Shown here in pieces: positions 8,402 through 19,665 of a DNA stretch of 20,604 nucleotides. Below the pieces are notes generated by a model, which saw nothing but the letters and a program-made list of their open reading frames with translations, was not told the origin of the DNA and searched no databases. A program made the translations under genes and the position numbers. The stretch covers positions 1-20,604 of the IMG/VR virus record IMGVR_UViG_3300046507_000126; one strand, 5' to 3'. The DNA comes from a virus. Within the stretch, counting starts at the first letter, position 1. Every line of letters begins with the position of its first letter.

Positions 8402-8423
8402 AAAAGCCCTGAAAAGGGCTTTT
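8402..8423 (-). terminator. Intrinsic terminator after the 108-residue gene
   Basis: AAAAGCCC (8402-8409) pairs with GGGCTTTT (8416-8423) around a 6-base loop. On the minus strand it follows directly on the stop codon at 8425-8423 and ends in TTTT. Confidence 0.75.
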
Positions 8424-8749
8424 TAAATTAGTGATATTGAGGACTCGACCCATTTCTTGACTTTCGCATCGTTCCAAGAAAAATACATTACTTGGTCATC
8501 ATCGAAAGAAAGGATTACCTGAATGGGTGTCGGATCATCCTTGATGTCATATTCCCAAAGAATTTCTAATCTGTCTTTGGGTTTTAGATTGATATATTGC
8601 TTTTCTTCATCAGCCTTGTCTTCCAACAAAGGCACCTTGCAATACTTGGTAGCTTCATACATCTTCTTAGCACGGGGAGCACCCTCACCGGCCAACTTCA
8701 GTCTATTCTTAGTTTGTAAATAGTCTCTAAAAGACAAATTGACTTTCAT
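8423..8749 (-). CDS. Small unknown protein with N-terminal LSFRDYL motif
   Basis: 108 residues, charged, soluble. The N-terminus (MKVNLSFRDYLQTKNRL) resembles that of the plus-strand kinase-like protein (MKDLSFKNYLIEM) and, loosely, T4 capsid-targeting peptides, but it lacks the (L/I)-x-E cleavage triplet at the matching place. The remainder alternates short strands and helices (LEILWEYDIKDD, PIQVILSFDDDQVMYFSW). It is bounded upstream by a CATAAATA box and downstream by its own terminator, so it is probably a single-gene transcript located between lysozyme and the membrane protein. No family recognised. Confidence 0.7.
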   Translation of the reverse strand: MKVNLSFRDYLQTKNRLKLAGEGAPRAKKMYEATKYCKVPLLEDKADEEKQYINLKPKDRLEILWEYDIKDDPTPIQVILSFDDDQVMYFSWNDAKVKKWVESSISLI

Positions 8750-9353: not shown

Positions 9354-10763
9354 TTAAACGAAGTCTAGGTTTACTACGTTGATCTTACCGTAGTAGTCAG
9401 CGCTGTTACCCAAGGATGTACGAGTGTCGGTTAGGACAGTCTTAGCATAACGGGTCATCAAGCTTACTACTGGCTGCATTGTAACAGGGTTGATGATCGT
9501 ACCTGTTGACATCAATGGGATGTATGGGCAGTAGAAGTAACCTGCGTCAGTTTCACCATTGCCACCCTTGTAACCGACAAGAATCTTGTCGCTACCGGCT
9601 GGTGCGGATGTACCCGGCTGAGCCTGATTCCATAGGTAGCTATAGACCTTGATGGTGCCGTTCAATGTACCTGCCAACTGTGTGTTGGTTGGTGACTTGA
9701 ATGAACCTTCAACGGCTGGTGCGAATACTGCCTTTGCAGCGCTCTGTAGAGCAGAAACGATCATTGGGGAAACAACGATGAAGTTGCCTGCGCCACGACG
9801 TGTCTTACGTGCAATTTCATTTGCTACAGCATTGATGGTTGGGCCTAGGTTCGCTAGACGGTCACCGATGAAGGCTGGTGCATATGTGGTGCCGGAAGTA
9901 GCAGCCAAGTCAAACACGCGAACTGTACCAGCTAGTGCTAGCAAGTCGTTGATGATTTCGGCGTCGATTTCCTGAACGATTTCGGCTGAAAGACCCTTGG
10001 TGATTTCAGTTTCGATATCTAGACCGTGCTGGCTGTTCAAGTCCTGCATAGCTTCGATGGTCCATGAAGCCTGTAGCTTACGTGAAGCAGCTTCGACAGC
10101 CTGTGATACGACTTCTAGGCTCATCTTACGGCCACCGGTACCTTCTGCGAATGATGAGTTACCACCACGTAGAGAACCACCGACTGGATTACCGTATAGA
10201 GTTGTACCAGTGTCATATGTTGTTACGTTTGGATCAGAAGCCCAACCTTCACCAGTTGCAGGGGAACCAGTGATACCAGCAGGTGCGGATGTACCGTCCT
10301 GACCAGCAGCAGCGAAACCACTTGCACCAGCAGCCTGTGCTACGCCAGTGTTACCTGAGTAGAACTGACGGATTGGCTTAGCATTACCAAAAGCTTCGTC
10401 ACCAGAAACGATGTCATAACCACCGAACTGTGAACGGGTTGGATCATGCTGCATGCTTTCTTCGTACTTATAACGTAGGGTGAAAATCTGTGATACAGGA
10501 CCGGACATTGGCTGAACACCAACGATTTCGGTTGCGATTGTACCCGGAATTACACGGCGGATAAGTGGTAGAAGGGTCTTACGGAAGTTCGCAATGTCAC
10601 CAGCGGCAATTGAACCACCTGATGCAGTTTCGCGAAGCATGTGAGTCTTCTGGTTTTCTAGAACAGCTTCGACGATGCCGACCTTGTTCTTTGGTAGACC
10701 TTCAAGCAAAGCTGACTTTGTTTGGGTCCAGTTTTCGTTTAACATCTTTAGATCTTCGGCCAT
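9354..10763 (-). CDS. gp23: Major capsid protein, T4 gp23 family
   Basis: 469 residues (T4 gp23 521). The segment after residue 45 aligns by eye with the mature T4 protein: TASGGSIAAGDIANF, then LIRRVIPGTIATEIVGVQPM and VSQIFTLRYKY match T4 'MVRRAIPNLIAFDICGVQPM' and 'QVFALRAVYG'. The C-terminal half has FIVVSPMIVSALQSA, YKGGNGETDAGYFYCPYIPL and TRYAKTVLT, all characteristic. LRE (43-45) fits the prohead protease recognition (L/I)-x-E, so residues 1-45 are probably removed on maturation. The protein forms the hexameric shell lattice. A good ribosome site (AGGAG) precedes the ATG. The scaffold gene lies directly upstream and a strong terminator downstream. A long Ala/Gly-rich insertion (about 140-210) is probably a surface loop. 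Confidence 0.96.
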   Translation of the reverse strand: MAEDLKMLNENWTQTKSALLEGLPKNKVGIVEAVLENQKTHMLRETASGGSIAAGDIANFRKTLLPLIRRVIPGTIATEIVGVQPMSGPVSQIFTLRYKYEESMQHDPTRSQFGGYDIVSGDEAFGNAKPIRQFYSGNTGVAQAAGASGFAAAGQDGTSAPAGITGSPATGEGWASDPNVTTYDTGTTLYGNPVGGSLRGGNSSFAEGTGGRKMSLEVVSQAVEAASRKLQASWTIEAMQDLNSQHGLDIETEITKGLSAEIVQEIDAEIINDLLALAGTVRVFDLAATSGTTYAPAFIGDRLANLGPTINAVANEIARKTRRGAGNFIVVSPMIVSALQSAAKAVFAPAVEGSFKSPTNTQLAGTLNGTIKVYSYLWNQAQPGTSAPAGSDKILVGYKGGNGETDAGYFYCPYIPLMSTGTIINPVTMQPVVSLMTRYAKTVLTDTRTSLGNSADYYGKINVVNLDFV

Positions 10764-10794: not shown

Positions 10795-11727
10795 TTAATC
10801 ATTAACGCCAGAAAGTACTTTCAAACGGTCAATCGCTGATGCAGGGATATTTCCGACTGAAGGTGCTTCTTTTAGAGATTCGGTAATCGCGGTGTCGCCA
10901 GTCTTGATTACAGTTTCTTCGACAATAACGTCTTCTTTCTTGCCTTCGGCTAGTACAGGTGTTGGAACACTTTCCTTCTCCGACTTTTCACTTACTTTGT
11001 GTAGAACTGTACCGATCATACGTTCATACTGTTCTTCCAACTTTTCCACTGGAACAGTCTTTAGAATGGTTTCCATGATTTCGCGTGAACGACCCTGAAG
11101 TGGTTCTAGGACTTCGTTCATCTTCTTGTCACGGGCAACTGTTGATAGAGCTACAGTTGTTTCGTTTAGCTTCTTTTCTGCGTCGGCCAACTTGGCTTCT
11201 GCTTCCTTCAACTGATTCAATGTTTCATTGCTGTCAGCGAAGTTTGATTCAAATGCAGTGCGGAATGACTCAAAAAGGTCCATGCCGTACTTGATCTTCT
11301 TTACTTCAACGATATCGGCTTCTAGTTCAGCGAACTCTTCCTGTAGGCACTTGGTGTTGAATGCGTCTAGCTGATCAATTAGTTCAGCCATATCAGTCTT
11401 AAGTGTTTCAGCAAGTTCAGCCTTAGCTTCAACTAGCTTGAAAGCGTATTCGGCTTCAACGTCACGGAATGCTGCGATGTCGTCATGTAGAGTTTCTAGA
11501 CCTTCCTGAAGAAATGCTTCAGCCTTAGTATCTAGAGCGTCGATTAGATTTTCTTTTTCTGTCTGGAACTGTTCTGTCAATTCAGCACGAACCTTAAGAG
11601 TAGTTTCGGCTGTAGCTACAGTAATGGCTTCTTCAAGCTTGGCCTGAAGAGCTTCGGTCAATTGCTGCTTAGCTTCTTCGTTCAGAACGTCAGTCTGTTC
11701 TAGTAGCTGTTTGAATAAGTCTTCCAT
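10795..11727 (-). CDS. gp22: Prohead core scaffold protein, T4 gp22-like
   Basis: 310 residues from the ATG at 11727, chosen because AGGAG stands ten bases upstream and the protein then begins MEDLFKQLLEQTDVL; an in-frame ATG at 11772 lacks a ribosome site. The sequence is almost entirely acidic helix and coiled coil (repeated AELTEQ, KAELAETLK, LEADIVE) with several (L/I)-x-E triplets, as expected for a core protein degraded by the prohead protease. The C-terminus (SVGNIPASAIDRLKVLSGV) is more ordered. T4 gp22 is 269 residues and also directly precedes gp23. It would nucleate and shape the prohead and be removed before packaging. Assignment rests on position, composition and length. Confidence 0.87.
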   Translation of the reverse strand: MEDLFKQLLEQTDVLNEEAKQQLTEALQAKLEEAITVATAETTLKVRAELTEQFQTEKENLIDALDTKAEAFLQEGLETLHDDIAAFRDVEAEYAFKLVEAKAELAETLKTDMAELIDQLDAFNTKCLQEEFAELEADIVEVKKIKYGMDLFESFRTAFESNFADSNETLNQLKEAEAKLADAEKKLNETTVALSTVARDKKMNEVLEPLQGRSREIMETILKTVPVEKLEEQYERMIGTVLHKVSEKSEKESVPTPVLAEGKKEDVIVEETVIKTGDTAITESLKEAPSVGNIPASAIDRLKVLSGVND

Positions 11728-11904: not shown

Positions 11905-11912
11905 AATAAATA
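11905..11912 (+). promoter_or_regulatory. Late-promoter-like box AATAAATA for the plus-strand gene
   Basis: Plus-strand AATAAATA (7/8 to TATAAATA), 20 bases before the ATG at 11932, with the ribosome site AAGGAA between. It mirrors the box at 11777-11784 on the other strand. Confidence 0.45.
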
Positions 11913-11931
11913 AACAACCAAGGAACCATTC

Positions 11932-12603
11932 ATGAAAGACTTATCGTTTAAAAATTATTTGATCGAAATGCCTGTCCCGGCTGATTGGGATAAAGAGAAG
12001 TTAGGAGGAAGAAATTCCTTCGCAAGTCAAATTAGATATGCTAAAGAAAGAGCCAAGCAAATTGGTACCGGTAGCTCAAGAGTTGCCTTCGTCGTTCCTT
12101 ATGAAGGAAGACAGACAGTTTTAAAGATTGCAAAGAATAAAAAGGGATTGTCTCAGAACGAGCATGAGGCCGGAATGTTTTCCGACTATTATCTGAAGGG
12201 ATTAGGAGTTACTATTCCTATGATCGATTATGATGAGGACTCAATCACTCCATCATGGATTCATACGGAATTTGCGGCCAAGGCAAAGCCTTCCGATTTT
12301 ATAAGGGCAACTGGATTAGCCCTGCATGATCTTATTAGATATGCAATGATGGGATGTGGTAAAGAAAGACCTAATGGTGACCAAGAGAAAGCTTGGTATC
12401 AGGAATGGCAAGAGAAGCTAGACGAGAATGAGCTTGCCAGTGGCCTAATCGATTTACTAGGTAGCTACGACATACCTGTGAATGATTTTAAGGCTATAGG
12501 TAATTGGGGGATTTACGATGGTGGTCCCGTGATTATTGACTTGGGATTATCACACGATATTATGACTTCGCTTTATTCAAGAAAACCACAGAACAGATGG
12601 TAA
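11932..12603 (+). CDS. Protein-kinase-like protein with a capsid-targeting-like N-terminus
   Basis: 223 residues; the only clear plus-strand gene. It has kinase-like landmarks: a glycine-rich loop at 45-53 (GTGSSRVAF), a VLKIAKN strand with K65 in the position of the ATP-anchoring lysine, an acidic QNEHEA helix (75-80), a hinge-like IHTEFA (110-115), NWGIYD (191-196) and V-I-I-D-L-G-L-S (200-207), where D203 could replace the DFG aspartate. No clear HRD loop is seen, so activity is uncertain. The first 12 residues, MKDLSFKNYLIE, resemble T4 internal-protein targeting peptides such as MKTYQEFIAE, which end in the protease signal (L/I)-x-E. If it works likewise, the protein is packed in the head, trimmed after E12 and delivered with the DNA. 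The ribosome site is AAGGAA and a terminator follows the stop. Kinase-like fold is by motif reading; packaging is inference. Confidence 0.85.
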   Translation: MKDLSFKNYLIEMPVPADWDKEKLGGRNSFASQIRYAKERAKQIGTGSSRVAFVVPYEGRQTVLKIAKNKKGLSQNEHEAGMFSDYYLKGLGVTIPMIDYDEDSITPSWIHTEFAAKAKPSDFIRATGLALHDLIRYAMMGCGKERPNGDQEKAWYQEWQEKLDENELASGLIDLLGSYDIPVNDFKAIGNWGIYDGGPVIIDLGLSHDIMTSLYSRKPQNRW

Positions 12604-12606
12604 TAA

Positions 12607-12630
12607 AAAAGCCCGCGAAAGCGGGCTTTT
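12607..12630 (+). terminator. Intrinsic terminator between convergent genes
   Basis: AAAAGCCCGC (12607-12616) pairs with GCGGGCTTTT (12621-12630) around a GAAA tetraloop on the plus strand. It follows the kinase-like gene's stop by four bases and also lies after the minus-strand acb2-like gene, so it may act in both directions. Confidence 0.9.
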
Positions 12631-12632
12631 CT

Positions 12633-12860
12633 TTAGAACGTTGTTGGTTTTGCTACTGATCTTACAAGAGCCATTAATCCCGTTTGTAAATCAGTCTTGC
12701 CAATTGCTACCCAGCGCTTGTCAGTATGCTCGATGGCTAGAAGCTCATTCACTAGAGCATCTAACTGTGCTCCGACTGTATTCTTAATTTTATTCATGAG
12801 GTCAATGTCTTCCTGTGTAAGTTCACGGTAGCCAGTGATCTGTCTGTGTTGATTATCCAT
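12633..12860 (-). CDS. acb2: Acb2-family cyclic-oligonucleotide sponge (anti-CBASS)
   Basis: 75 residues. The sequence has the family's hallmarks end to end: HRQITGYRELTQEDIDLMN at 5-23, RWVAIGKTDLQ at 49-59, and LMALVRSVAKPTTF at the C-terminus. Acb2 proteins (for example from Pseudomonas phage PaMx33, and T4 Vs.4) form a helical hexamer that captures cyclic di- and trinucleotides, blocking CBASS effectors. From memory, Y11 and K26 are ligand-contacting residues in the Pseudomonas protein; here residues 11 and 26 are also Y and K. It follows the phosphatase gene by 39 bases and ends at a shared terminator. CCATAA/TTATGG around the start codon could form a small hairpin that covers it. The family assignment is confident; activity and ligand are inferred. 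Confidence 0.88.
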   Translation of the reverse strand: MDNQHRQITGYRELTQEDIDLMNKIKNTVGAQLDALVNELLAIEHTDKRWVAIGKTDLQTGLMALVRSVAKPTTF

Positions 12861-12899: not shown

Positions 12900-13646
12900 T
12901 TAATATGCAATTAGACCTTCAGGGTTATTAATTTCAAGAAGAGAAAGCTTCCTTGATATCGCACCCGTGTCCAGATAAATGACGTTCTCGATCTGCGTTG
13001 GATACATCACCGATACATGCCCATGGACTACATAGTCAATACCCGTGATCGGAAGTGCTTCAACGTTAACATGAAGAATTCCACGTTCCAGTTCCTTCGT
13101 CATTTCCAGCCCTCTAATCTCCTTTTGGAAATCATTAAAGATGTCGAATGACCAGAGTGAGTTCTCACCGAACTTGTCATAGTAAATCTTAAACATTTCC
13201 CAATCGTTGGTAGGGACTTCAGCGTGGACTAGACCGAACTTACCATTGAACGTATCAATTTCTATAATATGAGGCAGCTTGTCCAGTGCGTCTACGAAGG
13301 CATCCTTCTCGTACTCGTGAAGATCAATGAACCACTGACCTCCATGTCTAGCATAAGAATTTAACCAACTCTCTTGCTGGTGGTATTCCTTCACCATTTC
13401 CTCATGATTTCCCTTGGAAGAGAAGAACCAAGGCTGTCCCAAATATTCTAAAACTTTGTGTGACTGTGGCCCGCGATCAATGAGGTCTCCTACCGCGAAC
13501 AACCTGTCTTTACTTTTATCGAAACCGACTTCTTTTAATAATTCCTCTAGGAGGTTGAAGAATCCGTGGATGTCGCCAACTACGAAGTCTCTACCTCCAT
13601 TAGGGTTTAAAGAGAAGCGGCTTAGTCTCAAGTCGTATCTTCCCAT
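12900..13646 (-). CDS. Calcineurin-like Ser/Thr protein phosphatase (lambda PP type), copy 1
   Basis: 248 residues from the ATG at 13646. That start is chosen because AAGGAG lies six bases upstream; an in-frame ATG at 13664 includes the ribosome site itself. Metal-binding motifs are in order: GDIHG (24-28), GDLIDRG (53-59) and GNHE (79-82), then LVHAEVP and a C-terminal VVHGHVSV with YLDTGA. These are the motifs of lambda phosphatase and bacterial PrpA/PrpB, which use two metal ions, typically manganese, to remove phosphate from proteins. It could also act on nucleotides such as diadenosine tetraphosphate, as ApaH does. A second related phosphatase lies two genes upstream. Cytoplasmic, no membrane segment. 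Confidence 0.92.
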   Translation of the reverse strand: MGRYDLRLSRFSLNPNGGRDFVVGDIHGFFNLLEELLKEVGFDKSKDRLFAVGDLIDRGPQSHKVLEYLGQPWFFSSKGNHEEMVKEYHQQESWLNSYARHGGQWFIDLHEYEKDAFVDALDKLPHIIEIDTFNGKFGLVHAEVPTNDWEMFKIYYDKFGENSLWSFDIFNDFQKEIRGLEMTKELERGILHVNVEALPITGIDYVVHGHVSVMYPTQIENVIYLDTGAISRKLSLLEINNPEGLIAY

Positions 13647-13710
13647 AATGTACTCCTTAGGCATCTAGTCTACCACAGCGCAAAGACTAATGGAAGTGCT
13701 AGATTTTATT

Positions 13711-14109: not shown

Positions 14110-14826
14110 TTAAATAAAACTACTCTTATATATGGCTTCTTCGGATGTTGCAACACTGTGGAACGTGAATGTCTCACCTAGTTCTACCATTGTTAAGAAC
14201 TGCCCTGCCACTGCGCCTGTATCGATGTATGTGACATTCCCTAGGGTTAATGGCACTCTGACAATGGTATGCCCAACAAAGACATGGTAGATATCATCTA
14301 CTCTGGATTCATCCATGATCTTGAATTTATGTCTTCCTTCAATCAGTCTAGCAAAGAAATATCTTTCTTTTTCTTCATCAAAATCTTCTGACAATGTACT
14401 CTTTAGATCATTCCAAGGTCTTGGAGCTTCAGCGTGAACCACACCAATCTTTCCCATAGAGGTTTCTATTTCCATCGCATACGGTAACTGTTGAAAGAAA
14501 TCTACATATTTCTTCTGAGTTTCACGATCTAATTTTATGAACCATTCTCCACCATTCTTAGCATAGAATGCTTCTGTACACATTTCATTGTAGTACGAGA
14601 TAGTCATGTTTTCATGATTACCCTGAATTGCATAACCTTTAAAATTGATTGCATCATGGGACTCTGGACCTCTATCGGCCAAGTCACCAACACTGAACAG
14701 TCTATCTTTAAAAGGATTGAAGCTTACTTGAGCTAGTAACTTATCCAGATGATCAAAGCATCCATGGATGTCACCAACAATGAAATCTCTACCTTTAGTA
14801 TTTCTTTCAAATGATCTAAATTTCAT
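14110..14826 (-). CDS. Calcineurin-like Ser/Thr protein phosphatase, copy 2
   Basis: 238 residues with GDIHG (18-22), GDLADRG (47-53), GNHE (69-72), VVHAEAP and VGHTIVRVP with YIDTGA. It is clearly related to copy 1: same motif spacing, same N-terminal FxxxxxGRDFxVGDIHG, and both have a GGxWFI segment after the metal site. In the second motif it has A where copy 1 has I. The two have diverged strongly, so the duplication is old or they were acquired separately. The ribosome site AAGGA stands six bases ahead of the ATG. The gene begins a unit right after the tRNA cluster terminator; its promoter is not evident. The substrate cannot be predicted. Confidence 0.92.
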   Translation of the reverse strand: MKFRSFERNTKGRDFIVGDIHGCFDHLDKLLAQVSFNPFKDRLFSVGDLADRGPESHDAINFKGYAIQGNHENMTISYYNEMCTEAFYAKNGGEWFIKLDRETQKKYVDFFQQLPYAMEIETSMGKIGVVHAEAPRPWNDLKSTLSEDFDEEKERYFFARLIEGRHKFKIMDESRVDDIYHVFVGHTIVRVPLTLGNVTYIDTGAVAGQFLTMVELGETFTFHSVATSEEAIYKSSFI

Positions 14827-14872: not shown

Positions 14873-14948
14873 TGGCAGGTACCGTCAGATTCGAACTGAC
14901 ACTAAGAGGTTTGGAATCTCGTGTGCGGCCGGGTTACACTAGGTACCT
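14873..14948 (-). tRNA. tRNA-Trp(CCA)
   Basis: 76 bases with encoded CCA. The acceptor stem AGGTACC/GGTACCT is perfect, the D stem is GTGT/ACAC, and the T arm GTCAG-TTCGAAT-CTGAC is perfect. The anticodon loop reads TTCCAAA, giving CCA. The A1-U72 pair and G73 also match bacterial tRNA-Trp identity. The anticodon stem is poor: only three central pairs (G-C, A-T, G-C), with A-C next to the loop and a mismatch at the base. Confidence 0.82.
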
Positions 14949-14953
14949 ATATT

Positions 14954-15028
14954 TGGAGCGCAATGTGGGAATCGAACCCACTTAATTCTGCATGGCAAGC
15001 AGATAATCAACCAATGACTCAATCGCGC
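14954..15028 (-). tRNA. tRNA-Gly(GCC)
   Basis: 75 bases with encoded CCA. Acceptor GCGCGAT/ATTGCGC (one G-T), anticodon stem TCTGC/GCAGA perfect, loop TTGCCAT giving GCC, T arm GTGGG-TTCGATT-CCCAC, and U73 as in glycine tRNAs. It lies five bases from tRNA-Trp and one base past the end of the 63-residue gene. Confidence 0.93.
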
Positions 15029-15029
15029 A

Positions 15030-15221
15030 TTAATTTGCTTGAACAACAGTTATCTTTACTTTAGCCATTGAAGGCAAAACTAAAAGTTTATTGTTCGGAA
15101 AAGCTTCCTTAATAGTTTTCTTTATTGACTCTAGGTAGTCCGCCTTAAACGATGGCGGCATACGATCAGTGTCAACTTCAACAACTAAAATATCGTTTTC
15201 TTTTACTGTAACTAATTCCAT
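15030..15221 (-). CDS. Small unknown protein within the tRNA cluster
   Basis: 63 residues from the ATG at 15221, preferred over an in-frame TTG at 15227 because AGGA stands seven bases upstream. The protein has two beta strands (MELVTVKENDILVVEV), then MPPSFKADYLESIKKTIKEAFPNNKLLVLPS, a helix and further strands. Short proteins of this 'D-x-x-x-M/L-PP-x-x-A-x-x-Y ... FP-x-x-x-x-L-V-L-P' type occur in other T4-like phages as far as I recall, with no assigned function. It is encoded between tRNA genes and its stop comes one base before tRNA-Gly. Confidence 0.7.
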   Translation of the reverse strand: MELVTVKENDILVVEVDTDRMPPSFKADYLESIKKTIKEAFPNNKLLVLPSMAKVKITVVQAN

Positions 15222-15269
15222 TTTCAAATCCTATTTACAAATATTTAGGTCTGAAAATAAATCATGAAT

Positions 15270-15350
15270 TGGTGGAGTTACCGTGGGTACGATCCCGGCT
15301 GTTATATGCAGTGCAAGTGCATCGACCACCCCATAGCAGTCCCTAACCCC
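15270..15350 (-). tRNA. Divergent tRNA-Ala-like gene (TGC), possibly a pseudo-tRNA
   Basis: 81 bases ending in A-CCA. Acceptor GGGGTTA/TAACTCC pairs fully (one G-T) and the anticodon stem ATGCA/TGCAT is perfect with loop CTTGCAC, giving anticodon TGC. The T arm is abnormal: CCGGG-ATCGTAC-CC-C(A)CGG has a bulged A and its loop lacks the TTC and the conserved A58. The variable region is long (about seven bases). It may be a decayed or specialised copy next to the normal tRNA-Ala(TGC). Confidence 0.6.
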
Positions 15351-15366
15351 ATTGTATCTTTAAATC

Positions 15367-15441
15367 TGGTGGAGCCACCGGGAATCGAACCCGGCCATCA
15401 AGCTTGCAAAGCTAGCGTGCCACCAACAACACCTTGGCCCC
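15367..15441 (-). tRNA. tRNA-Ala(TGC)
   Basis: 75 bases with encoded CCA. Acceptor GGGGCCA/TGGCTCC (one G-T), T arm CCGGG-TTCGATT-CCCGG, A73. Anticodon loop TTTGCAA gives TGC; the anticodon stem CTAGC/GCTTG has one T-T mismatch. The acceptor has no G3-U70 as third pair by simple reading except the G-T at pair 3, which is the alanine identity element. Confidence 0.93.
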
Positions 15442-15533
15442 AAATTATTTCAAGTCAACCCTTATAGTATTCAATTGGTGATTGGTCACCATCTTGCTTC
15501 TCTCTTTCAGTTTCAAGTAGAGAGATACTTAAT
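15442..15533 (-). other. Spacer between tRNA-Ala and tRNA-Cys with two small hairpins
   Basis: 92 bases with no convincing gene. It holds the inverted repeats GGTGA-TTGG-TCACC (15477-15490) and TCTCTCT/AGAGAGA (15499-15505 with 15519-15525). One minus frame ends LETEREKQDGDQSPIEYYKG before a stop at 15455, which reads like a protein tail but has no start outside the tRNA. Confidence 0.4.
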
Positions 15534-15607
15534 TGGAGTCCGGTAGGTGAATCGAACACCTCTTCGAAGCTTTGCAGGCTCCTACATAACCAATCTGTCA
15601 ACCGGAC
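15534..15607 (-). tRNA. tRNA-Cys(GCA)
   Basis: 74 bases with encoded CCA. Acceptor GTCCGGT/ACCGGAC perfect, anticodon stem GGAGC/GCTTC (one G-T), loop CTGCAAA giving GCA, T arm AGGTG-TTCGATT-CACCT, and U73, the cysteine identity base. It starts one base past the stop of the 84-residue gene. Confidence 0.94.
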
Positions 15608-15608
15608 A

Positions 15609-15863
15609 TTATTCTTCTGTACAAGTATGCCATACATCTTCTTTATCTGTCAACCAATACTTTCCAGTATCGTGTTTCTTCCAACGAAGGTTTGGCGTTC
15701 CACAAACATTACATTTAACTGAGGTTTTAGAATATAAAATCTTTATATTTTCAATTAGACTACTTTTCATGACTCGTTCATTGCTGTTACGAATCATTTC
15801 TCTGTAAGCCTCTCCAGTTTCATCACCCTCTTCACCAGTTCCATATGGAAATAAATTAGGCAT
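15609..15863 (-). CDS. Small protein with a C-terminal zinc-binding-like knuckle
   Basis: 84 residues. C51-x-x-C54 and H79-x-C81 could bind one zinc, framing GTPNLRWKKHDTGKYWL. The N-terminal half is acidic and helical with no motif. Similar small phage proteins carry a 'C-x-x-C-G-T-P-x-L-R-W ... H-x-C' pattern, to my recollection without known function; nucleic-acid binding is a guess. A perfect TATAAATA lies 38 bases upstream of the ATG, behind a TTGACA, so the gene probably has its own promoter. tRNA-Cys follows its stop by one base, so both would be made from the same transcript. Confidence 0.75.
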   Translation of the reverse strand: MPNLFPYGTGEEGDETGEAYREMIRNSNERVMKSSLIENIKILYSKTSVKCNVCGTPNLRWKKHDTGKYWLTDKEDVWHTCTEE

Positions 15864-15900
15864 GCTGTTTACTCGATGTAATTTCGTTCTTGTTTGGATG

Positions 15901-15933
15901 TATTTATAGTAGCATCAAAAATTTTATTGTCAA
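15901..15933 (-). promoter_or_regulatory. Promoter with perfect late box, possibly overlapping a sigma70 promoter
   Basis: The minus strand has TATAAATA (15908-15901), an 8/8 match to the T4 late consensus. TTGACA (15933-15928), a perfect -35, lies 19 bases before TATAAA, slightly longer than the usual 17. It may serve both host-type and late transcription of the 84-residue gene and the tRNAs after it. Confidence 0.6.
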
Positions 15934-15936
15934 CAC

Positions 15937-16830
15937 TTAAACTTCAGGATTATCATCAGCCCAATAAGCATGTAGACGTTCGATAATTCTCTGTGAAACT
16001 TGATCAGGGAACCTATCATCCTGTGTATGATCATGAACTACATACGGATTGTTCTTGTCCCACATCCTGTAAGTGTTTCTAATCCACTTGCCAGTTGTAT
16101 GGTTAAGGGAAATTAGCTTTTCTTTCCTGACGAAGATAATATCGCTAGTGTCAGATTTAATCAAGTCTTCAAAGATTTCATCTTCAGATAGAAACTCTGA
16201 AGCTTTATCCTTGGACTCTTCAGTGATTACCTTCTCTTCAAAGATAGGCTCACTAGGGATGCTTATCGTCTTTCTACCAAATGCAGCAAGATCAACCATG
16301 CTATGTGTATGTGGCTTATCAAGGCCACAATGTGGGCAAGCGAATGTTCCACCTACGTCTACAATGACATCCTTGTTAATCGATCTTTCTTCCTTATGCT
16401 GATATTCAGCAAGAGGAATATTATAAGGATTGATAGGATAGTTAGGAAACTTATATGGGGTCTCTGGTGCAACCTCAGGAAGAACCTTATCATAAGCAAT
16501 ATACTTGAACAGTCTGTCATCCTGTGCTGGCTTATTCATAATAATATGATATGCCATCATCGTGTTTGCCATAGCATGAGCTAGGTGGTGCTGGCCTGAA
16601 TCTTCAGCGTATTCTTCACCCGACTTAAACGCATTGATATGACGCTCAAGGGCATCCATTACACGAGAGATTTCTAGGTTTACCCAATTGTTTGCAGAGT
16701 ACTTCTTAGCGCCTGAAGTCATTACTTCGGCTACAGCCTTTAATGAATCTGGTGGAAGTAACCCATACTGAGCCTTATCACCATCCATCTTTGTACCACC
16801 GTGCTTACCATCAACTTTTATTTCTGTCAT
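15937..16830 (-). CDS. dATP/dGTP pyrophosphohydrolase-like protein (DUF5664/MazZ type) with C-terminal extension
   Basis: 297 residues. Residues 14-100 match the phage family named dATP/dGTP diphosphohydrolase (DUF5664, which includes MazZ): MDGDKAQYGLLPP, GAKKYSANNW (40-49), a R-x-x-x-A-L-x-R-H helix ending about 64, GEEYAEDSG (71-79) and HHLAHAMAN (81-89). Its helical, MazG-like fold uses acidic and histidine residues to hold metal and release pyrophosphate from (d)NTPs. The extra C-terminal 190 residues include C165-P-H-C168 with H174 and H176, a possible zinc site, and a final strand-rich section. In Z-genome phages MazZ feeds 2-aminoadenine synthesis, but PurZ and DatZ are not in this window, so that role cannot be claimed. 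The ATG overlaps the ATP-grasp stop (ATGA), the last gene of a four-gene operon. Confidence 0.85.
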   Translation of the reverse strand: MTEIKVDGKHGGTKMDGDKAQYGLLPPDSLKAVAEVMTSGAKKYSANNWVNLEISRVMDALERHINAFKSGEEYAEDSGQHHLAHAMANTMMAYHIIMNKPAQDDRLFKYIAYDKVLPEVAPETPYKFPNYPINPYNIPLAEYQHKEERSINKDVIVDVGGTFACPHCGLDKPHTHSMVDLAAFGRKTISIPSEPIFEEKVITEESKDKASEFLSEDEIFEDLIKSDTSDIIFVRKEKLISLNHTTGKWIRNTYRMWDKNNPYVVHDHTQDDRFPDQVSQRIIERLHAYWADDNPEV

Positions 16831-17687
16831 ATTAAACCTTCAGCTTTATCCTTATTGTACAACATCTGAACGTATTCTGAAACACCTTTAATGATCTTTT
16901 CAGGGTCACATGCGTACCATCCGGCACAGTTGAAAGAGTTTAACTCTACAATCTTTACGGAACCATCTGCCATCTTTGCGATGTCACAGGTGAATACCTC
17001 AGTAGGTGTTCTTCTACTTTTTGCTACCGCATCAGCAAGCTTGTAAGCCTCTGTGGTGTAGAAACGACGTTCATTGTGGTCACCCATCAAATTGTATTGA
17101 GAACCATCAATGATGTCTCTTCCAGCGATGATGAATCGGTATTCTTCTCTGATCGTCTTACCAGTTGAAACCATGATCAGGCTGTTGTCTACAACCCCTG
17201 ACAATTGTCTTAAAGTATTAGACTGATACTGCAAATCCTCAATACCACAGATAGGAAGGCCTGTGAACAGTTTGCTTCCTGAGTTAGGTCTGATGAATAG
17301 CTTATTGGTCTGGAACAGACTCGTGTACTTATCAAAGTTAAGTTCAAAATCATAGAATGTGGTAATGATGAAATCACCATTCACCCATAGATCATTAGAC
17401 ATCTGTAACTTGCTGTGATAATTATGGAACTTCAAAGCCTCTTCATCTAAGAATGAACCGTAGTAAGGTCTCAGGAATTTACCGAAGTTGATTGTAGAAT
17501 ATGGAATTACACAATCATCAAATGAATATGGAAAATCAATATCCTCTTTCCTAGAAAAAGGAATGTAGTCCATAGCGGTGTATTCGTATCCTAAAGAGTC
17601 TATAACATCAGTGAGGCTAGCAAGACCAGCCTCACTGAATTCGTTATATTTTCGGAACATACTCTTATCAAGAATCCACTTAACCAT
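16827..17687 (-). CDS. ATP-grasp ligase, R2K-clade-like
   Basis: 286 residues from the ATG at 17687. An in-frame ATG at 17732 would add 15 residues, but starting here puts the first strand (VKWILDKS) at the N-terminus as in the family. No strong ribosome site precedes either; coupling to the upstream gene (ATGGTTAA, start overlaps stop) can explain this. ATP-grasp features: FIRPNSGSKLFTG (131-143), EEYRFII (181-187), VFTCDIA (231-237) and the metal-binding KIVELNSFNCAGWY (245-258, with E248 and N250). Ligases of this type join a carboxylate to an amine through an acyl phosphate. R2K enzymes are found in phages and have been proposed to tag peptides or proteins. Substrate unknown. It sits directly before the nucleotide pyrophosphohydrolase. 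Confidence 0.85.
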   Translation of the reverse strand: MVKWILDKSMFRKYNEFSEAGLASLTDVIDSLGYEYTAMDYIPFSRKEDIDFPYSFDDCVIPYSTINFGKFLRPYYGSFLDEEALKFHNYHSKLQMSNDLWVNGDFIITTFYDFELNFDKYTSLFQTNKLFIRPNSGSKLFTGLPICGIEDLQYQSNTLRQLSGVVDNSLIMVSTGKTIREEYRFIIAGRDIIDGSQYNLMGDHNERRFYTTEAYKLADAVAKSRRTPTEVFTCDIAKMADGSVKIVELNSFNCAGWYACDPEKIIKGVSEYVQMLYNKDKAEGLI

Positions 17688-18111
17688 GGAAGAATTGCTT
17701 CGTCTCAAATGCGTGCTTGTGCCAGTCAACATCTAAGCTGTATAGCTTTTCTGTGATGTAATCACGAAGATCACCATAGTCAAAATTATCATCCCAAGCA
17801 ACAGCAAGCGCCTTGTTATTGCCGACTTCAGTTAGAACAACCACGTATGTGTATGGCTTATACTGTGAACCCGGTTCGGCGTTTAGCTTAATTAAGGATG
17901 ATTCAAGATCGTATGACTGAATATTTAATCCATCCATAGCCAAGTCTGCAACCCTAAATTCTAAATCATCAAATACCAAAGCATTGATACCATCAATTTC
18001 ATCTTCAGTTAGAACCGAATATCCTGCATAGGTTGGGGTAATACTCAGGGTTACCACTACAGCGTTTACACTACCATCATAATCGCCCAACACAATATCA
18101 AAGCTGCTCAT
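17680..18111 (-). CDS. Unknown protein coupled to the ATP-grasp gene
   Basis: 143 residues from the ATG at 18111, spaced six bases from GGAG. Another ATG three bases earlier and a TTG at 18123 are less well placed. It is an acidic, alpha/beta protein with many beta strands (YTYVVVLTEVG, ALAVAWDDNFDYGDL) and a C-terminal HKHAFETKQFFHG. No motif or membrane segment is recognised. Its start overlaps the upstream gene by 14 bases and its stop overlaps the ATP-grasp start by eight, so it is tightly coupled to both. It might be the ligase's substrate or partner; this rests on context only. Confidence 0.75.
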   Translation of the reverse strand: MSSFDIVLGDYDGSVNAVVVTLSITPTYAGYSVLTEDEIDGINALVFDDLEFRVADLAMDGLNIQSYDLESSLIKLNAEPGSQYKPYTYVVVLTEVGNNKALAVAWDDNFDYGDLRDYITEKLYSLDVDWHKHAFETKQFFHG

Positions 18112-18355
18112 CATTATCTCCAAGTATTTCGCGTTCTAGTCTATTGATCTGATAGCGTATGTCATTTAAATCTTTTAGAGTACTGATTTTATCGTGACAA
18201 TCGTTATACTTCATGTCATCCAACAATTGGATGATACGGCTCAATCTTTTTGAATGTTTGTTTAATTTTGATGCGGTTTGTAAATGACCATAACACTCAT
18301 CAAAAGGCTTGCTGTCATCTGCCTCTGAATCATAATGTGCAATATCATCTGTCAT
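18098..18355 (-). CDS. Small helical protein, first gene of the operon
   Basis: 85 residues, hydrophilic, with an acidic N-terminus (DDIAHYDSEADDSKP) and a likely coiled coil from about 30 to 80 (SKRLSRIIQLLDDM, RYQINRLEREIL). The function is not recognised. A sigma70-like promoter lies just upstream (18379-18407), which makes it the first gene of a four-gene unit that runs to 15937. The next gene starts before its stop. Confidence 0.7.
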   Translation of the reverse strand: MTDDIAHYDSEADDSKPFDECYGHLQTASKLNKHSKRLSRIIQLLDDMKYNDCHDKISTLKDLNDIRYQINRLEREILGDNDEQL

Positions 18356-18378
18356 TGGATTGTCCCTAGTTTGATCGG

Positions 18379-18407
18379 ATAATACACGATAAGGGATTAA
18401 TTGTAAA
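18379..18407 (-). promoter_or_regulatory. Sigma70-like promoter of the ATP-grasp/pyrophosphohydrolase operon
   Basis: Minus strand TTTACA (18407-18402), exactly 17 bases, then TATTAT (18384-18379). Each box matches the consensus in five of six bases. It sits 24 bases before the ATG at 18355 and just after the tRNA-Met gene. It suggests early expression by host RNA polymerase, unlike the structural genes. Confidence 0.65.
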
Positions 18408-18418
18408 GTTTAAGAAGA

Positions 18419-18496
18419 TGGTGGACATGGTTGGATTCGAACCAACGATCTTTAGTTTATGAGACTAACGCATTAGGCCAGCTATGCTACATGTCC
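18419..18496 (-). tRNA. tRNA with CAT anticodon (elongator Met or Ile2)
   Basis: 78 bases with encoded CCA. Acceptor GGACATG/CATGTCC perfect, D stem GCAT/ATGC, anticodon stem TTAGT/ACTAA perfect, loop CTCATAA, T arm GTTGG-TTCGAAT-CCAAC. The paired first base rules out initiator tRNA. CAT reads AUG unless C34 becomes lysidine, in which case it reads AUA (Ile). The first ten bases also encode the end of the HNH gene. Confidence 0.93.
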
Positions 18497-18912
18497 AATT
18501 CGGCTCTTCGACGTTTCTCTGGATGAGTATCATCCAATCCGTCTAGCCATATTTCCTCATGTGTTATTCTATGACAATTCGAACATAGAAGATCACACTT
18601 GTCTAACTCCTGTTTCAACGAATTCCAATTGCTGGTTCGTTTGTTACCCCAACTGAATTCCTTCTCGTTTGGGTCTCTATGATGGAAGTCATAGACTGCC
18701 ATGCTTTCGAATGTTTTTTCGCAGCGCATACATGCGCCACCCAAATATTCTATTGCTTTAACTTTTAAAACTCTTTGATTATGATGACTTCTAAGGTTAT
18801 GGCATGTTCTGCACATAGTCTTCATATTCGACTTATCATAAAAGTCATTGGGATCAGTTTTTCCGCAAACCTTACAGCAATAATCTTTTAATGAAACACC
18901 TTTAGCTACCAT
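18487..18912 (-). CDS. HNH endonuclease
   Basis: 141 residues. Two pairs of CxxC motifs (13-16 CKVC and 34-37 CRTC) form a first zinc knuckle. CMRC (61-64) with LLCSNCH (108-114) holds a second zinc around the HNH core: DFHHRDP (75-81) and CHRITHEE (113-120). This is the pattern of stand-alone homing HNH enzymes common in T4-like genomes, which nick or cut DNA and spread by repair. Location inside a tRNA cluster is typical. The stop codon lies within the first ten bases of tRNA-Met. Upstream, a TATAAATA box inside a strong hairpin could start its own transcript. The start is ATG at 18912, which lacks an obvious ribosome site. Confidence 0.88.
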   Translation of the reverse strand: MVAKGVSLKDYCCKVCGKTDPNDFYDKSNMKTMCRTCHNLRSHHNQRVLKVKAIEYLGGACMRCEKTFESMAVYDFHHRDPNEKEFSWGNKRTSNWNSLKQELDKCDLLCSNCHRITHEEIWLDGLDDTHPEKRRRAELDM

Positions 18913-18921
18913 AAATTAAAT

Positions 18922-18954
18922 CCACTTCTTAGTACTATTTATACTAAGAAGTGG
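18922..18954 (-). terminator. 13-bp perfect hairpin after tRNA-Ser(GCT), with a late promoter in its loop
   Basis: CCACTTCTTAGTA (18922-18934) pairs exactly with TACTAAGAAGTGG (18942-18954), loop seven bases. On the minus strand it follows the tRNA-Ser end by five bases and is followed by an A/T-rich tract (ATTTAATTTA), not a pure T-run. It likely ends the tRNA transcript; efficiency unknown. Confidence 0.7.
18936..18943 (-). promoter_or_regulatory. Perfect late-promoter box TATAAATA before the HNH gene
   Basis: An 8/8 match on the minus strand, spanning the loop and the first two stem pairs of the 18922-18954 hairpin, 24 bases before the HNH ATG. Confidence 0.6.
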
Positions 18955-18959
18955 CAATG

Positions 18960-19052
18960 TGGAGGAAGGCAAGGGATTCGAACCCTCAAACCCCCGTTAA
19001 GGGATCAAACACTTTAGCAAAGTGTGCCGTTCGCCAGTACGGTAGACCTTCC
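18960..19052 (-). tRNA. tRNA-Ser(GCT)
   Basis: 93 bases with encoded CCA. Acceptor GGAAGGT/GCCTTCC, anticodon stem ACACT/AGTGT perfect, loop TTGCTAA giving GCT. A long variable arm (TCCCTTAACGGGGG region) marks a class II serine tRNA. T loop TTCGAAT. The base before CCA is T, where most bacterial serine tRNAs have G. Confidence 0.92.
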
Positions 19053-19060
19053 AGTATGAC

Positions 19061-19068
19061 TATTTATT
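19061..19068 (-). promoter_or_regulatory. Late-promoter-like box AATAAATA before tRNA-Ser(GCT)
   Basis: Minus-strand AATAAATA (7/8), nine bases ahead of the tRNA 5' end and overlapping the stop of the 162-residue gene. A T4-style start would fall almost at the tRNA's first base. Confidence 0.35.
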
Positions 19069-19555
19069 ACTTTGTAGACTTTGTTGCAGCTTTAAACTTT
19101 GCTGCTAGGGATTCACTAAATCCACCCGGAATTAAATCTTCTAACTTGTAAACGGTGTAATCTGTTTCAGGCCATACCGGATGCTTTTCTTTCTTATCGG
19201 TTGGCTGTTTTGAAGCTTCTCTTAGAGACCTGATGACATCATAAAGTGCGGAATGGGCATCCTTGCGCTTGCCAGCTTCCTTGTTTACAGCTTCAGTCTT
19301 AACATCGGCTTCTGGTTCTTTACCTTCTTCAGGAGTTAGATCATTAAGCTGCTTTAGCTTAGCCTTCAGCGTTTCAAGCTCTGTATTAAACTTAGCAATG
19401 ACCGCTTTCTTATTTTCAATCTGTCTATTAATGTCCTGAACAGCTACACTTTTTTCATTTCTTAAAAGCTGCTTAAGCTGCGCTGCACGCTTTTCTGCTT
19501 CATTAATCTGAGAGATAATATTATCTATAGACACAGTTCCACTAAATTCGTTCAT
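19067..19555 (-). CDS. Coiled-coil protein of unknown function
   Basis: 162 residues from the ATG at 19555, selected because AAGGA stands six bases upstream; an in-frame ATG at 19585 would lie inside tRNA-Ser(GGA). A long coiled coil runs from about 12 to 85 (EAEKRAAQLKQLLRNEK, KAVIAKFNTELETLKAK), followed by an acidic linker and a helix. The C-terminal part (HPVWPETDYTVYKLEDLIPGGFSES) is the only likely folded segment. No membrane segment. Not recognised. It lies between two serine tRNA genes and would be co-transcribed with them. Confidence 0.75.
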   Translation of the reverse strand: MNEFSGTVSIDNIISQINEAEKRAAQLKQLLRNEKSVAVQDINRQIENKKAVIAKFNTELETLKAKLKQLNDLTPEEGKEPEADVKTEAVNKEAGKRKDAHSALYDVIRSLREASKQPTDKKEKHPVWPETDYTVYKLEDLIPGGFSESLAAKFKAATKSTK

Positions 19556-19572
19556 TTTTATCCTTGATATTA

Positions 19573-19665
19573 TGGCGGAAGGCATCAGATTCGAACTGAA
19601 ACCGGGTTTTAAATCCGGTCCAACGCGTTTCCAGCGCGTGATCGCTCCTAGCGATTTTACCTTCC
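19573..19665 (-). tRNA. tRNA-Ser(GGA)
   Basis: 93 bases with encoded CCA and G73. Acceptor GGAAGGT/GCCTTCC, anticodon stem ACGCG/CGCGT perfect, loop CTGGAAA giving GGA, a long variable arm (GACCGGATTTAAAACCCGGTT region) and T loop TTCGAAT. The acceptor stem is identical to that of tRNA-Ser(GCT), but the other arms differ. Confidence 0.93.

Follow-up and report, generated by a model that had tools for sequence, protein, structure and literature searches.

The window, which is the whole stretch of 20.6 kb that was analysed, is a fragment of a T4-superfamily phage, and the relative nearest to it is G001, a contig of 171 kb with 92% DNA identity over the 4-kb stretch compared. The major capsid protein gp23 (PF07068, E 4e-99) is encoded at 9354..10763 on the minus strand. 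Just upstream of it, in the position of gp22, lies a second minus-strand gene at 10795..11727, with its ATG at 11727, which matches phrog_10922 (unknown function) and is considered scaffold-like on the basis of its position and composition. Divergent from this gene, at 11932..12603 on the plus strand, is an ORF of 223 aa with an ATG start and an AAGGA ribosome-binding site at 11920-11924. A sequence-only reading of this DNA had described the ORF as the only plus-strand gene and as divergent from the scaffold gene, and both descriptions hold: it is the sole convincing gene on that strand, the remaining plus-strand ORFs being antisense to minus-strand genes. The profile of phrog_4301, a family without known function, matches residues 1-218 of the product and thus extends over the protein length (E 4.2e-16), and a dN/dS of 0.11 against the closest relative, L001, indicates purifying selection. 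A Pfam search with the protein matched no family. The ORF is a real gene.

Downstream of the ORF, between it and the next gene, is a GC-rich hairpin with A/T flanks (12606..12631) that resembles a bidirectional terminator; similar copies occur elsewhere in G001. The adjoining minus-strand gene (12633-12860) encodes a 75-aa Acb2/Tad1 hairpin-domain protein (PF24729, E 6e-16), probably a cyclic-nucleotide sponge against CBASS/Thoeris defence. Two calcineurin-like phosphoesterases (PF00149), protein-phosphatase-like, are encoded nearby on the minus strand at 12900-13664 and 14110-14826. A conserved kinase-phosphatase pair was considered and rejected, since L001/G001, with 92% identity, was the sole relative in which a neighbouring phosphoesterase was seen. 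The minus strand also carries seven tRNA genes at 14873-19665, some of which overlap short ORFs.

The region upstream of the ORF was examined for promoters. The sequence AATAAATA (11905..11912, plus strand), 19 nt before the start codon, is a late-promoter-like motif, which we take to resemble the T4 late promoter. Of 33 kinase genes, 14 have ATAAATA in the 60 nt preceding them, against an expectation of 1.2 and a maximum of 5 in 500 shuffles. Within the window it also stands ahead of the lysozyme gene, the scaffold-like gene and further genes of the structural region, and it is absent before the Acb2 and phosphoesterase genes; outside the structural genes it was likewise seen before the HNH gene and an ORF at 15863. 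TATAAATA with one mismatch allowed was not enriched over the whole window, so that it is informative solely through its placement ahead of genes. A sigma-70 promoter was rejected, as the scan gave nothing above chance.

An AlphaFold2 model of the protein, built with an alignment of 40 relatives, showed a protein-kinase-like fold (pLDDT 90.1, pTM 0.83). Foldseek returned 121 matches in the PDB at E up to 1e-3, and the best 50 of the 121 were kinases or related phosphotransferases, headed by the archaeal kinase TkArkI (E 6.7e-5, probability 1.00). VIA-align gave Z scores of 8.9 for ACVR1, 8.8 for APH(2'')-IVa and 8.6 for PRPK, the best corresponding to an rmsd of 3.6 A over 136 residues. Together the kinase matches from both programs cover residues ~12-219 of the model, with low to modest TM-scores of about 0.4 against solved kinases. 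A profile search of PDB sequences produced two matches in total, both to kinases below threshold (SteC, E 0.19; BTK, E 0.61), one of them aligned over the half with the Gly loop and Lys, the other extending into the half with the catalytic loop and DFG; the single protein sequence searched against the PDB matched nothing significant. Comparison of a predicted structure with kinase folds had been proposed as a check of the kinase assignment, and the model and fold searches support it. The modelled 223-aa protein almost certainly has a kinase fold.

The motifs on which the kinase assignment was originally based (GTGSSRVAF at residues 45-53, VLKIAKN with K65, and IIDLGLS with D203) are all present, and their conservation among 40 sequences argues against chance. 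In the Gly-rich loop (12064..12090), G47 and R50 are found in 40/40 sequences. K65, the beta-3 lysine (12124..12126), and E79, the probable alpha-C glutamate (12166..12168), which lies in model helix 70-83, are likewise invariant (40/40). The absence of an HRD motif had been correctly noted; in the alignment it is replaced by (G/N/A)D185, and the invariant D185 holds the catalytic-loop position, followed by N191-W-G193. This catalytic-loop-like segment, D185-FKAIG-N191-W-G193, spans 12484..12510; G193 is also found in all 40 sequences, and the N191 column contains Asn in 27/40 and S/T otherwise, with Asn sometimes one position earlier. D203-L-G205 (12538..12546) is the equivalent of DFG, with D203 and G205 in 39/40, and the sole D203 exception, L118, is a sequence that stops at a contig end. 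Only 18 residues follow D203-L-G205, and the canonical C-terminal subdomain after DFG is missing. HRD being absent, the Asn variable and the remaining C-terminus this short, the domain (approximately residues 13-209, 11968..12558) is therefore described as a minimal kinase-like domain without the C-terminal subdomain that would follow DxG. With E values up to 10 considered, neither the window nor any of eight relatives matched the Kinase-PolyVal family (PF18762).

Some of these same features (no HRD, a catalytic-loop Asn in only 27/40, no C-lobe after DxG) would suit a packaged protein that performs no phosphotransfer, either a pseudokinase, as had been suggested, or an ATP-binding decoy. The suggestion of a pseudokinase is weakened by the essentially invariant Lys/Glu/Asp/Asp catalytic set: conservation of K65, E79, D185 and D203 in 39-40 of 40 sequences, which, for sequences this divergent, is unlike a decaying active site, favours an active phosphotransferase. 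Polyvalent-protein kinases without a C-terminal subdomain have also been reported to keep their active-site residues (PMC5512222). We consider a pseudokinase distinctly improbable and, from the conserved residues, predict with good confidence that the protein is an active phosphotransferase. Its substrate could instead be a small molecule, as for aminoglycoside phosphotransferases: APH(2'')-IVa scored as well as the protein kinases in VIA-align (Z 8.8 vs 8.9), and APHs were among the top Foldseek rows. Against this, it is hard to see where the compact C-lobe could accommodate the helical substrate domain of APHs, and kinases gave both the top Foldseek match (TkArkI) and the remaining short solved match (PRPK). 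Phosphorylation of small molecules is considered unlikely, and a protein is the probable predicted substrate.

Relatives of the kinase were found at 53 loci in viral contigs and, in addition, in XacN1 (ORF170) and two Alishewanella phages. More distant homologues occur in RaK2/121Q-type phages, where some are annotated as protein kinase (K64-1, Muenster, Munch). A cellular origin was rejected, as just two weak relatives were found among 84,980 prokaryote species. A conserved place beside the head genes was also rejected: in relatives the distance from the kinase gene to the protease gene ranges from 5 kb to more than 90 kb.

The N-terminus of the protein reads MKDLSFKNYLIE, as had been reported. 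These residues 1-12 (11932..11967) have an (L/I/F)xE ending and form a putative capsid-targeting propeptide, with predicted cleavage after E12. Position 12 is Glu in all 36 relatives whose alignment reaches it, and a hydrophobic-x-E ending is present in 33 of the 40 aligned rows; the tags of the relatives' kinases are about 8-20 residues long with hydrophobic-x-E at the end. The corresponding part of the model has low confidence (pLDDT below 50 for residues 1-5, mean 71 for residues 11-20). A simpler reading is that the kinase domain merely begins with the LIExP segment, whose resemblance to T4 would be coincidental. Part of LIExP may indeed belong to the domain, because the Glu before (M/A)xP is also kept where the kinase is internal, as in the GNAT fusions described below. 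The low model confidence at the tag nevertheless speaks against the simpler reading, as does the complete difference in tag between similar bodies: L014 and L019 have like kinase domains, yet one begins MKSFKQYIKE and the other MKNKDQILLENLYTE. The tag is moreover missing in the RaK2-type relative that was aligned, and tags match those of unrelated neighbours in the same genome. A mere domain start is very improbable.

Sharing of tags within genomes was evaluated by permutation in 33 genomes, from which kinase-like neighbours had been removed by BLAST. The kinase tags scored 558 against the N-termini of non-kinase neighbours in their own genomes, compared with 334 +/- 32 after permutation, and none of 20,000 permutations reached the observed score. 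Examples are L009, in which MKSTEFITE begins both the kinase and a neighbour, and L100, with MKFADFLNE and MKFVDFLNE; the L019 tag MKNKDQILLENLYTE recurs on several unrelated neighbours. In three genomes 19 proteins start with the tag motif, whereas its frequency at internal methionines predicts about 2.1. In the Alishewanella phage Slickus01 (L031, 4034-10636), nine consecutive genes end with the kinase, most of their products starting MKIDxLYxSLLEE-like, and the run includes a polyvalent-type ADP-ribosyltransferase (ART; PF18760, E 4e-11). The evidence for tag sharing comes from the relatives: among the window's own proteins, no unrelated one has a close ungapped match to the kinase tag (rank 11 of 33). 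These observations support the view that residues 1-12 are a detachable tag.

Several further tagged proteins were noted. In the structural region of the window, a 108-aa ORF (8423-8749, minus strand) preceded by ATAAATA starts MKVNLSFRDYLQTKN (MKVNLSFRDYL), which is like the kinase tag if shifted by one residue; it is possibly another head-targeted protein. G001 encodes two small tagged proteins whose bodies look related, at 136853 (plus strand; MKIFDILTED...) and 70218 (minus strand; MKKIRDILSEAP...); the gene for the first is adjacent to that for the prohead protease, and a similar protein is encoded in XacN1 at 174593. The Slickus01 run also contains several paralogous 'VFHAT...FLSTAR' proteins, ART-like in look and without a Pfam match. 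In L014-L020, L027 and L028, many unrelated proteins, including a PARP-like one (L020 2955), start M(K/R)xKDQ(I/L)LLE(N/S)(L/I)Y, which, as judged from these N-termini, is a second, longer kind of genome-specific tag.

In five relatives (L002, L102, L108, L109 and L112, the last by sequence similarity) GNAT acetyltransferase domains precede the kinase in a fusion protein. The kinase follows an ART-like region, judged by eye, in L118, and in L116 it forms the C-terminal end of a protein of 1434 aa. Next to L102, a tagged protein was identified as an SLT transglycosylase. Both ART and GNAT are domains known to recur among injected phage proteins (PMC5512222; PMC7824862). In L104, L105, L108, L109 and L112, an extra hydrophobic-x-E-(M/A) site separates the kinase from the N-terminal tag or GNAT domain before it, and cleavage of such fusions by the prohead protease might yield separate enzymes within the head.

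A prohead protease of the S77 (T4/gp21) type is encoded in 6 of 6 relatives tested, G001 included; the window ends short of the gene. A probable site for this protease, LRE|TASGG, lies near the N-terminus of the window's gp23, and gp23 of the clade has [LI]xE before T/S at what we presume to be the position of T4 gp23 processing. These findings bear on a further reading, in which the kinase is real and active but the tag is some other genome-specific address, such as a phage-made compartment, a membrane or a replication site, and the enzyme acts late inside the cell and is not injected. The tag evidence reveals a common detachable N-terminus and not its destination, and the kinase gene of relatives is not always near head genes, both of which agree with such an address. 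It does less well with the (L/I/F)xE ending, the signature anticipated for cleavage by T4-type prohead proteases and also seen in the clade's gp23, with the S77 protease in all six relatives tested, and with co-tagged partners (ART, SLT transglycosylase, GNAT) of kinds that classically act early or are injected. Another destination is rather unlikely, and residues 1-12 are fairly likely to be a capsid-targeting sequence, as predicted. The T4 likeness claimed at the outset has gained from genome-specific shared tags, loss of the tag in a subclade, S77 proteases in relatives and the late-promoter-like motif; the wider interpretation, of a head-packaged kinase acting at infection, is sustained in part.

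We favour, with moderate confidence, a model in which the gene encodes a capsid-targeted effector with a minimal kinase fold whose tag is cleaved and which is injected with the DNA, a delivery like that of T4 Alt and the internal proteins. The kinase would be made late, along with the head genes, and residues 1-12 would bind the scaffold core in the manner of T4 capsid-targeting sequences. The T4-type S77 protease would then cut after E12 (LIE|MP), leaving a 211-residue kinase in the head. On infection the kinase would enter the cell before phage gene expression and phosphorylate a host protein; by analogy with T4 Alt and T7 gp0.7, our guess is that this target would belong to transcription, translation or defence. 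In the part of the XacN1 virion mass-spectrometry account that was covered, the text names three packed enzymes, and ORF170 is not among them.

Packaged ARTs, injected GNATs, capsid-targeting sequences and truncated polyvalent or phage kinases have each been published separately. In the literature searched, mostly outside subscription journals, no packaged phage protein kinase was found beyond the polyvalent-protein paper (PMC5512222), nor was a small tagged kinase, or a set of genome-specific tags that kinases, ARTs and further enzymes of large phages have in common. The chances are about even that genome-specific capsid-targeting tags serve large T4-superfamily phages as a code by which a wide range of injected proteins is addressed (kinases, ADP-ribosyltransferases, acetyltransferases, transglycosylases and unknowns), of which this kinase would be an early example. 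If so, reading the tag in any such genome would list its head-packaged effectors, and injected effectors, including many 'hypothetical' proteins of large phages, could be predicted from sequence alone. Host proteins would also be phosphorylated by phage particles at DNA entry, a chemistry unlike that of T4's packaged ADP-ribosyltransferase. Packaging of the kinase is directly testable by virion proteomics in the isolated phages Slickus01 (Alishewanella) and XacN1.

Among known systems, T4 IPI-IPIII and Alt offer the closest parallel in delivery. The T4 internal proteins have N-terminal propeptides of 10-19 residues, of which ten suffice for targeting, and processing of the IPIII tag depends on residues 8 and 10 (PMC9026906). 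The kinase-like protein has a similarly short hydrophobic N-terminal tag ending in (I/L)xE, and in its relatives one tag is carried by unrelated bodies, with ART among the cargo and an S77 protease encoded; it differs in having a kinase fold, not that of an ART or nuclease inhibitor, in a tag that varies by genome, and in that packaging and cleavage are here predicted. Kinase domains of phage polyvalent proteins lack the C-terminal subdomain, keep active-site residues and have been proposed to be injected (Iyer et al. 2017, PMC5512222). Kinase-PolyVal (PF18762) shares these structural traits with the present domain as well as an association with ART and GNAT, whereas our protein does not match PF18762, is usually stand-alone with a tag, and belongs to large T4-superfamily phages instead of Verrucomicrobia/Bacteroidetes prophages. 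The RaK2/121Q-type proteins (K64-1, Muenster, Munch) have a homologous kinase domain, but the RaK2-type relative that was aligned is without the N-terminal tag carried here. TkArkI and PRPK are also compact kinases; they are, however, archaeal and human cellular proteins with 16-17% identity to the phage protein. T7 gp0.7 is, like the predicted effector, a phage kinase expected to act early on host proteins. The T7 enzyme is made after infection, whereas the kinase-like protein would arrive with the particle.
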